Virus record (IMG/VR): IMGVR_UViG_3300007539_000279
Span: 1-21,031 of that record
DNA: 21,031 bases
Reading direction: 5' to 3' (one strand)
DNA from: a virus
A program made the position numbers and the translations under genes. A model generated the notes under the pieces. That model did no database searches, was not told the origin of the DNA, and worked only from the letters and a program-made list of their open reading frames with translations. Position 1 is the first letter of the stretch. Each line of letters begins with the position of its first letter. Positions 726 to 7,994 of the stretch are shown one piece after another.

Positions 726-1079
726 AAGGTACCGAAGATTGGCTCGTAAGTGACCGAAAGTTCTTATCTGGTTTTATGATCGGAACCTAGCTAAAAGTAT
801 ATAAATAAAGGGTTTAAAGGGGAAAGGTACCTAAGTTCTTAAGTTCTTATGTATAAATCTATATATATAAAAAAAAATAAAATTACATTACATATACATA
901 AATATTTTTTTTCTATATATATAATAGGGAAACATAAAGAACCTAGGTTCTTAGGTACTTTTCAGCTTAAGCTATTGTTTTTAATAAAGTTTTAGAGGTA
1001 CTTACCTCAAAACACTAAGGAACCTATTAGGTACCAATAATGTAAAGTATTGATTTTTAACGAATTGCAAAAGTACTTA
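726..1079. repeat. Array of 9-bp motif A(A/G)GT(A/T)C(C/T)TA, about ten or more copies
   Basis: Plus-strand copies or near copies are seen at about 758-766 (AAGTTCTTA), 825-833 (AGGTACCTA), 833-841 and 841-849 (AAGTTCTTA twice, in tandem), 945-953 (AGGTTCTTA), 953-961 (AGGTACTTT), 996-1004 (AGGTACTTA), 1029-1037 (AGGTACCAA) and 1071-1079 (AAGTACTTA). A shorter match, AAGGTACC, lies at 726-733. Minus-strand copies lie at about 782-790, 937-946 and 1019-1027. Some pair into palindromes: AAGAACCTAGGTTCTT (937-952, perfect), GAGGTA-CT-TACCTC (995-1008) and a 17-bp near-palindrome at 1019-1035. The dense clustering in noncoding DNA suggests binding sites for one protein, possibly the replication initiator, the small terminase or a late-gene regulator. 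Confidence 0.75.
826..959. repeat. Inverted repeat flanking an AT-rich palindromic core
   Basis: The reverse complement of 826-849 matches 936-959 at 18 of 24 positions by hand alignment. Between these arms the sequence is over 90% A+T (851-926). It contains a second, inner inverted repeat: an alternating TA run followed by nine A at about 859-879, mirrored by eight T followed by an alternating TA run at about 903-923. The result is a nested, roughly two-fold symmetric structure about 134 bp long. Such a layout fits a DNA-unwinding element between protein-binding boxes, or a bent, cruciform-prone regulatory or packaging site. Confidence 0.7.
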
Positions 1080-2985: not shown

Positions 2986-4364
2986 TCAAACTTAACCCGG
3001 CTCTAAGAGACTTCTGGGGATGTCCCAAGCCTTACAAAATTCTGAAGGGCGGCAGGGTATCAAGTAAAACTGAGGACACTGCTGGCCGTTGTATCTACTT
3101 AGCACAGCACTATAAACTTAAGTTTCTTTGCTTGCGGCAGTTCCAGAATAAGATCGCCGATAGCGTCTACCCAGTACTTAAAAAAAAAATATATAGCGAA
3201 GGTGTTGAGTCATCTTTCAGTCTCACTAAGTCTACTATCATATGCAAGACAACAGGGACCGAATTTATTTTTAATGGTCTCTCACGCAATACCGAGGACA
3301 TTAAGGGTATTGATGGGGTGGATATCTGTTGGATCGAGGAAGGCGAAGGATTGACAGAGGAGCAGTGGGGAATAGTAGATCCCACAATACGTAAACCCAA
3401 TAGTGAAGTTTGGATAGTTTACAATCCCCGTCTTCAGTCTGATTTCATAGAATCTAAGCTTCCTAGGCTGTTGGGTAATGATGCGATCATTAGGCATATC
3501 AATTATGACGAAAACCCATTTATCTCTGACACTTCGATTAAAAAGATAAATAGATTAAAAGACCTTGATGAAGAAGCTTATGAACATATCTACTTAGGCA
3601 AAGCAAGATCTGATGATGACGCTGTAATTATTAAACGCTCTTGGATTGATGCAGCAATAGATGCTCACCTTAAAATAGATATAGATATGACTGGTGACAA
3701 GTGTCTAGGATATGACGTAGCTGACAGCGGCTCTGACAATTGTGCTACTGTTCTATTTGATGGTTCGATAGCTCTAGAGTGTGACGAGTGGGCGGCCTCA
3801 GAGGACCAATTATTGGAGTCTTCGACACGGGTTTATCATCAAGCCAAAGCCAATCAAGCGGCTATCATTTATGATTCTATAGGCGTAGGTGCTGGTACTG
3901 GCTCTCACATCAACCAACTCAACGAAAAAAATTACACCACCATCAATTCTAGTGGGTTTAATGCTGGTGCTAGGGTAATAGACCCCGATAATGTTTATCT
4001 GGGCGAGGGTTCTAACGCTATATTAAACAAGGATTTTTTTGAGAATGCAAAAGCTCAAGCTTGGTGGTCGTTGTCCGTTAGGTTTAGAAACACTTACAAC
4101 GCCGTGCATAAAGGTCTAAGTTTCGAACCCCACCAACTTATATCAATTAGTAGTGATATAGCTAATCTGCAACAGCTAAAAGATGAGTTGTCAACGCCGA
4201 GGAAAGATTATTCCGAGAGTGGTAAGGTGATGGTTGAGTCTAAGAGAAAACTAGCTAAGCGCAATATAAAGTCTCCTAATCTGGCTGACGCCTTTGTGAT
4301 GGCTCTGGCCCCAAAAGAGAGCGAAAGTCTAGACTTTTTATCTTCTAATATTAACTTTTTTTAA
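2982..4364 (+). CDS. terL: Terminase large subunit (PBSX/Terminase_3 type)
   Basis: A 460-residue packaging motor. The N-terminal ATPase has a Walker A-like GGRVSSKT (23-30), a Walker B with catalytic glutamates DICWIEEGE (114-122) and a coupling segment WIVYNPR (144-150). The C-terminal RNase H-like nuclease shows the expected acidic positions: D245 in GYDVAD, D298 in IIYDSIG and D436 in SPNLADAF. The length is normal for the family. The protein would cut concatemeric DNA and pump it through the portal encoded next. Its ATG overlaps the stop of the fibre-like gene by 4 bp, which implies translational coupling. The gene is separated from terS by 1.4 kb, which is unusual. The assignment is firm. 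Confidence 0.95.
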   Translation: MIKLNPALRDFWGCPKPYKILKGGRVSSKTEDTAGRCIYLAQHYKLKFLCLRQFQNKIADSVYPVLKKKIYSEGVESSFSLTKSTIICKTTGTEFIFNGLSRNTEDIKGIDGVDICWIEEGEGLTEEQWGIVDPTIRKPNSEVWIVYNPRLQSDFIESKLPRLLGNDAIIRHINYDENPFISDTSIKKINRLKDLDEEAYEHIYLGKARSDDDAVIIKRSWIDAAIDAHLKIDIDMTGDKCLGYDVADSGSDNCATVLFDGSIALECDEWAASEDQLLESSTRVYHQAKANQAAIIYDSIGVGAGTGSHINQLNEKNYTTINSSGFNAGARVIDPDNVYLGEGSNAILNKDFFENAKAQAWWSLSVRFRNTYNAVHKGLSFEPHQLISISSDIANLQQLKDELSTPRKDYSESGKVMVESKRKLAKRNIKSPNLADAFVMALAPKESESLDFLSSNINFF

Positions 4365-6829: not shown

Positions 6830-7994
6830 CAAAGAAGAAGGGTGGTTTGAAGTTGAAGATAACCCAATATCAAAAGCCGGGGTGTTTGAGTATCTTGGAT
6901 CAAACATTAGTCCAGACCTTCAGCCTGACAAAATTTACAATGTATATCGTCCGGCTGAGGAACTGAATAATGATGAAACTAAAGAGTCTTTCAAACTAAT
7001 CCCTTGGATAATCACTCATAAAATGCTAGGAGACGCCTTTGATCCGGAAGATTCTACTGATATTGAGGGTTTTATTGGTGAAAAAATCTATTTCAAAGAC
7101 AACACTTTGTATGCTAACATCAAAGCAGTGTCTAAAAGACTCAGAGATTTTATTAGCCGAGGAGTCAAAGAGCTGAGCTGTGGCTATCAGTGCGACTGGG
7201 TGATTTCGCCCGGAACGACTCCGGACGGAGAATCTTATGATGTCATACAGCGTAACATTAGAGGCAATCATTTAGCTCTAGTTGAATCAGGGCGCATGGG
7301 TCCAGAAGTAGCAGTAATGGACAATGGTATTAATTATACAACTTTCGCATTTGACTCCCAAAAAGGTAAAAATATGGATGATTTAAAAGATCGTGTAGCT
7401 GGTGACGACGACCTAGAAACAAGGGTCGGAGTCATGGAAGACATGCTAAAAACTAACAATGATGCTCTAGACAAAATAACAGACATGTTATCTAAGCTCA
7501 CAAATGATTATGATAAAGATGTCGAGGTCGTTGAAGATGAGGACGACAAAGACAAAATAGAGATGTCTGAGGACGAGTGTGGCGAAGACTCTGACGAAGA
7601 CTCTGACGACAACGTTGAAATTGTTGAAGACGAGGACGACAAAGGCAAGGCTAAAGATAGCTACTCTATGGACTCTTTGTCTAAACAATTACGCATATTA
7701 CAAAATAAGGTTAATAGTCAAGAACTTGCAGCCAAGCAGCAAAAAGAAAAAATTAACTTACATAATCAAGCATCGTATCATATTGGTGCATTCGATCATG
7801 CGGACATGACTCTCGGTCAGATGAGCAAATACATTGCTCAAAAATTAGGGTTAAATTGTCGAGGCGACCAGTATGCAGCTGTTCAAGGATATTTAGCAGC
7901 TACTAAAATGCCGCATCTAAACACTCAGCGATCTCATGCTACAGACTCATCGGATGATAATTTGATGGATACAATCTTAGGGAGCAATAAATAA
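6816..7994 (+). CDS. DUF2213 capsid maturation protease-scaffold fusion
   Basis: A 392-residue head assembly protein. Residues ~1-175 match the DUF2213 pattern, with ITHKMLG (H68), VKELSCGY (S121) and GNHLALVESGRMGPEVAVMD (H152). The order and spacing of His, Ser and His resemble the Ser-His-His triad of herpesvirus assemblin, so this part is probably the prohead protease (inference). Residues ~187-392 look like a scaffold: a helical stretch, an extremely acidic segment (233-281) with two copies of VE(V/I)VEDEDDK, then a heptad-like segment. The start is GTG with GAGGT 5 bases upstream. The gene lies between minor head protein and cement/capsid genes, the usual place for protease and scaffold. 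Confidence 0.85.
   Translation: MRKIDKEEGWFEVEDNPISKAGVFEYLGSNISPDLQPDKIYNVYRPAEELNNDETKESFKLIPWIITHKMLGDAFDPEDSTDIEGFIGEKIYFKDNTLYANIKAVSKRLRDFISRGVKELSCGYQCDWVISPGTTPDGESYDVIQRNIRGNHLALVESGRMGPEVAVMDNGINYTTFAFDSQKGKNMDDLKDRVAGDDDLETRVGVMEDMLKTNNDALDKITDMLSKLTNDYDKDVEVVEDEDDKDKIEMSEDECGEDSDEDSDDNVEIVEDEDDKGKAKDSYSMDSLSKQLRILQNKVNSQELAAKQQKEKINLHNQASYHIGAFDHADMTLGQMSKYIAQKLGLNCRGDQYAAVQGYLAATKMPHLNTQRSHATDSSDDNLMDTILGSNK
7361..7376 (+). promoter_or_regulatory. Candidate internal ribosome binding site and start for a separate scaffold protein
   Basis: AAAAGGT (7361-7367) precedes an in-frame ATG (7374-7376, codon 187 of the DUF2213 gene) by a normal distance. The ATG lies just after the protease-like domain. 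A product from here would run to 7994 and contain only the 206-residue acidic, helical scaffold part. The arrangement mirrors lambda C/Nu3, where the scaffold is translated from an internal start inside the protease gene. Confidence 0.4.

Follow-up and report, generated by a model that had tools for sequence, protein, structure and literature searches.

A split iteron array at the 3' end of a primase-helicase gene as a candidate replication origin of a tailed phage

The window analysed here, a stretch of 21,031 bases that is the entire record of a viral contig, has its first bases inside a primase gene. The retained part of this gene, which is cut by the contig start (positions 3 to 677, + strand), encodes the C-terminal 224 amino acids of a D5/DUF5906-type primase-helicase, the proposed iteron-binding initiator. 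The primase end (677) is followed by the gene of the terminase small subunit (terS; 1173-1547, + strand), which is counted as a neighbour outside the element, then by terL and the head and tail genes. TerL, the portal, the tail sheath and the tape measure are all encoded in the window. The primase-terS gap spans 495 bp, with a G+C content of 28% at 678-1100; no convincing open reading frame was found in it, and an Rfam search of the array region that it contains returned no match. This array begins at position 728, 51 bp past the primase stop codon, and ends 96 bp before the start of terS. Farther downstream, a gene for a 359-amino-acid protein (1906-2985) occupies an unusual position between terS and terL; the protein carries an internal direct duplication (GVQSLSSGAGISIDNTDPQNPTVSA, twice) and had no match in searches of Pfam and PHROG.

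The initial annotation had reported ten or more copies of a 9-bp motif, ARGTWCYTA, in this gap. The dense array is real: the exact 9-mer occurs eight times in the 21 kb window (seven on the + strand and one on the - strand), always within 758-1079 and never in the other 20.6 kb, as compared with 1.4 occurrences expected from shuffles of the whole window, and 0.13 expected (maximum of three in 500) from shuffles of 678-1100 alone. The announced copy number thus slightly overstates the exact 9-mer and understates its 6-bp core, RGWWCY, which is present at 13 places in 728-1077 (1.6 expected); allowing one mismatch, the 9-mer has 23 matches (overlapping, on both strands) versus 2.2 expected. The core starts at positions 728, 759, 782, 826, 834, 842, 938, 946, 954, 997, 1019, 1030 and 1072. 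Since the two head-to-tail triplets have an exact 8-bp spacing, we take the repeat unit to be the 8-bp RGWWCYTA; the complete iteron array (728-1077) comprises 13 sites. No second array of the RGWWCY type was found in the 21 kb of this contig, which is a fragment.

A larger layout, which the initial annotation had missed, appeared when the sites were placed on the sequence. The left outer single sites (728-787) are GGTACC (728-733), AGTTCT (759-764) and GGAACC (782-787), followed by the left triplet GGTACCTA AGTTCTTA AGTTCTTA, with 8-bp spacing (826-849, + strand). The right triplet AGAACCTA GGTTCTTA GGTACTTT (938-961, - strand) is the mirror of the left one, and is followed by the right outer single sites (997-1077) GGTACT (997-1002), GGAACC (1019-1024), GGTACC (1030-1035) and AGTACT (1072-1077). 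The perfect 16-bp palindrome noted earlier at 937-952, AAGAACCTAGGTTCTT, is indeed present, and consists of two abutting RGWWCYTA units. Between the triplets lies an AT-rich centre of 88 bp (850-937; 89% A+T, the 99.9th percentile of the window), which is the proposed melting region. The whole is embedded in an imperfect 152-bp dyad (817-968; centre at about 892), the outer arms of which (817-848 and 937-968) are 78% complementary and the inner arms (862-884 and 901-923) 83% complementary; a single strand of this inverted repeat folds much more stably than shuffled DNA (z −5.15). About position 892, ten of the 13 sites are mirrored by another one (within 1.5 bp), a symmetry matched by 1 in 1000 random placements, and by 6 in 1000 when the triplets were kept as blocks. 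The sites showed no significant 10.5-bp helical phasing (p 0.2-0.3). Together, this anatomy and these statistics support the earlier suggestion that the array is a multi-site binding target, as judged from the DNA sequence.

The upstream gene had been annotated as P4/D5-type, and the profile searches agree with this assignment. The 224-residue fragment, which is the C-terminal part only, with the N-terminus and most helicase parts beyond the contig start, matches the PHROG 1156 DNA primase (2e-7), Pfam DUF5906 (2.8e-7, above the family cut-off) and the profile of the NrS-1 phage primase, the structure of which is known (7e-8). In the predicted model, the last 102 residues adopt a helix-strand-helix-helix-strand-strand-helix order, i.e. 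a winged-helix topology (pLDDT 85). A Foldseek structure search with this C-terminus retrieved mostly winged-helix-like proteins, none of them significantly (E 0.13 or worse).

We propose that the array is probably a replication origin, or a region resembling P4 crr, bound by the upstream primase-helicase. This candidate assignment builds on the observed array, its symmetry, its AT-rich centre, the link between arrays of this kind and homologous primases (see below) and the winged-helix model of the C-terminus. We infer that the winged helix at the C-terminus of the primase-helicase would bind the 8-bp iterons, and that two facing groups of the protein would assemble on the mirror-arranged triplets. 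The helicase, of the SF3 type by family, would then melt the 88-bp AT-rich DNA between the triplets, and priming would start, plausibly in both directions.

The linkage to homologous primases comes from the following lines of evidence. First, when each locus with a homologous primase was scanned in full, its top-ranking short-repeat window fell at the 3' end of the primase gene in 14 of 27 cases, and in 11 of 24 once near-duplicates were merged (chance about 4e-5). Second, 7-mer arrays in both orientations occur within 600 bp of the primase 3' end in 18/29 loci, a count that includes this window and near-identical phages and corresponds to about 15 independent cases. Third, facing tandem repeat pairs lie at the primase 3' end in 15/29 loci, versus 24 such pairs in 1.22 Mb of other loci; the window itself, owing to its variable units, escapes this strict tandem-dyad search. 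Fourth, the array centres exceed the 98th AT percentile of their locus in 11 of the 12 cases measured. These arrays are made of lineage-specific repeats of 7-9 bp, usually split around an AT-rich centre. The primase-end repeat is GGTAAC in Psp6, ACCTGTAACC in Silvanus, AGGTAACAG in Salmonella SP-030, CTTGTAAT in Klebsiella S9a, AGGTGAC in 611R5, CCTGCAC in Mcat2 and GGTCCGAA in BcepNazgul. Downstream of the PEi21 primase, the top-scoring window is a tandem repeat of a different type, with a 15-bp unit, and was left out of the counts.

Curvibacter phage PCA1, found by primase homology alone (29% identity), has seven GGAACC cores (on either strand) at or just past the primase stop, with terS 4.5 kb away. 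The contig L095 carries CTAGGAACCTAGGAACCTAGGAAC, with 8-bp spacing, between a primase-like C-terminus and terS; it was found by the motif scan, so that its resemblance is partly selected. The motif is common to the window, L095 and PCA1, the TerS proteins of which are mutually dissimilar (BLASTP against the TerS of the window) and belong to different PHROGs. The motif scan returned five contigs (L091 to L095), of which L095 is relevant. The others, namely L091 (TAAGTACTT near terS), L092 (beside tRNAs), L093 and L094, are probably chance occurrences or other elements, with no link to a primase where this was checked. In L091, an otherwise unrelated contig, a terS-like gene is preceded at about 1 kb by several TAAGTACTTAAGTACTT clusters (3064-3360), close in sequence to the array of the window.

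The rule is not universal, since about a third of the primase loci lack an array at the primase end, among them L056 (the closest primase), L115, L129, L131 and L132; in Suzuki and PSTCR9 the arrays lie farther from the primase. No close relative of the window carrying the array was found in the viral contigs scanned with TerS, the primase and the PCA1 primase, and the sequence of L010, a 100% TerL match to the window, begins after the array. In two contigs, L019 (about 3200-3550) and L090 (about 7000-7350), repeat arrays lie where a PrimPol or Toprim gene that also encodes an AAA_25 (RecA-like) helicase domain ends, which suggests that the primase-end rule reaches beyond the SF3-type primases. 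Elsewhere, at 900-1200 in L077 and 190-340 in L079, copies of GGGATAGTT are packed very densely into facing arrays that precede terL by 4-6 kb.

The initial annotation had left the choice open between an origin and a packaging site, where TerS would bind repeats upstream of its own gene, in a cosB- or pac-like manner, and the genome would be cut nearby. The short distance to terS suits such a packaging site, as does the fact that lambda cosB precedes its small terminase gene, and a cos overhang is annotated 0.5-0.6 kb beyond the primase in BcepNazgul and Smarc1. Two TerL relatives, L050 (7080-7360) and L055 (7100-7350), also carry AACTACA or CGTTACA in 9-10 copies immediately ahead of terS; their PrimPol-D5 primases are divergent and on the opposite strand, and origin and packaging functions are hard to tell apart there. 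Nevertheless, the motif array is absent from the loci of 80 TerL relatives, from CGphi29 and from 13 bacterial genome loci, and the closest TerS relatives examined (Mcat8 and Y8A) have neither the motif nor a comparable array upstream of terS, bearing in mind that these terminase relatives are only about 40-57% identical and that a diverged site could escape detection. Furthermore, in PCA1 and 611R5 the array stays with the primase, and every terS seen is kilobases away; where TerL relatives have other replication genes (L019 and L090), different arrays mark the 3' end of these; and the mirror layout with its AT-rich core is better suited to melting than to cutting. Because the TerL and TerS relatives lack the motif, the PCA1 array is far from terS and such arrays recur at homologous primases, we tie the array to the primase rather than to terS. 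The origin half of the initial alternative is thus favoured, as it is by the position of P4 crr 3' of alpha, and a packaging site is unlikely in the window. Given that the primase gene, the array and terS often sit side by side, and that cos sites are annotated in BcepNazgul and Smarc1, a packaging role is possible in some lineages.

Still less probable is an operator region, in which the repeats would serve a phage regulator of the late (terS) operon as binding sites. The site does coincide with the boundary between replication and structural genes, its many sites are near-palindromic and an annotated late activator adjoins the PCA1 array. However, no sigma-70-like promoter was detected at 600-1300 (2.8 expected by chance), an operator would not usually comprise 13 sites arranged with triplets and an AT-rich centre, and the arrays follow the primase gene regardless of the downstream genes. 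A partition site, or chance and low-complexity repeats, is very improbable: iteron-like centromeres do exist in phage-plasmids and AT-rich DNA favours chance palindromes, but no partition gene was recognised among the window genes checked, and composition-preserving local shuffles never reached the observed counts, which refutes chance.

Returning to the origin proposal, we give roughly even chances to its extension, namely that tailed phages with D5/DUF5906-type primase-helicases generally have a split-iteron origin immediately past the 3' end of the primase gene, which could be recognised from sequence alone. As the iteron sequence diverges in each lineage, the winged helix of the primase and the iterons would co-evolve. 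We found no comparative primase-end rule for phages in the literature searched, which was limited to open access; older work, e.g. on streptococcal phages with P4-like primases, may contain parts of it. If true, a simple rule would locate the origins of the Chi/Nazgul-like Casjensviridae, BPP-1, PCA1, Psp6, Silvanus, 611R5 and the phage of the window. The phages would also join the PICIs and P4 in one replication scheme, which bears on the source of satellite replicons and on the reasons why initiators may, or may not, be common to satellites and phages. Candidate recognition motifs would, in addition, be supplied for proteins whose origin sites have been called "not yet identified" (PMC4234260).

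Comparison with known systems places the array as follows. Like lambda-type cosB, it has repeats immediately before the small terminase gene; unlike cosB, its motif does not follow the terminase relatives. With pRN1 and the phages BIP-1/BPP-1 it shares a large inverted repeat 3' of a prim-pol/SF3/winged-helix gene, where the origins of pRN1 and BIP-1 have been placed; the BIP-1 origin is a proposal, described as a stem-loop with no iterons (PMC4234260), whereas clear iterons form the arms in the window. In BPP-1 (L134, about 1100-1215), a close kin of BIP-1, we noticed two copies of TTGCCTCGT facing two of ACGAGGCAA, with about 70 AT-rich bases in between. The stem-loop proposed as the BIP-1/BPP-1 origin thus comprises a 9-bp repeat (TTGCCTCGT) arranged as two pairs that face each other, a feature not mentioned where the origin was proposed (PMC4234260).

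Phage P4 served as a positive control, and our repeat scan ranks its known ori and crr as the top windows. P4 crr, directly 3' of alpha, starts within about 50 bp of the alpha stop and consists of 8-bp repeats in both orientations. Similarly to P4 crr/ori (type 1 repeats, GGTGAACA), the window has iterons of about 8 bp, in both orientations, 3' of a primase-helicase gene; unlike P4, which has another repeat sequence and a separate ori some 4.5 kb from crr, the window fragment shows one array.

The origins of PICIs lie immediately 3' of pri-rep and comprise two iteron sets around an AT-rich region, a functionally tested layout stated to occur in no other known bacterial replicon (PMC6092414). 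Like these SaPI-type origins (e.g. EcCICFT073), the array is located directly 3' of the primase/initiator gene and has two iteron sets flanking an AT-rich region, here the triplets around the 88-bp centre. PICIs are satellite islands with a tested origin function, whereas the window is a tailed-phage contig with structural genes and a candidate origin; since TerL, portal, tail sheath and tape measure genes are present, the window is not a PICI and has only the origin layout in common with them. Split-iteron origins were already known in PICIs, and in a related form in P4; the window adds a predicted tailed-phage case, and the wide spread of such arrays among tailed phages appears under-described.
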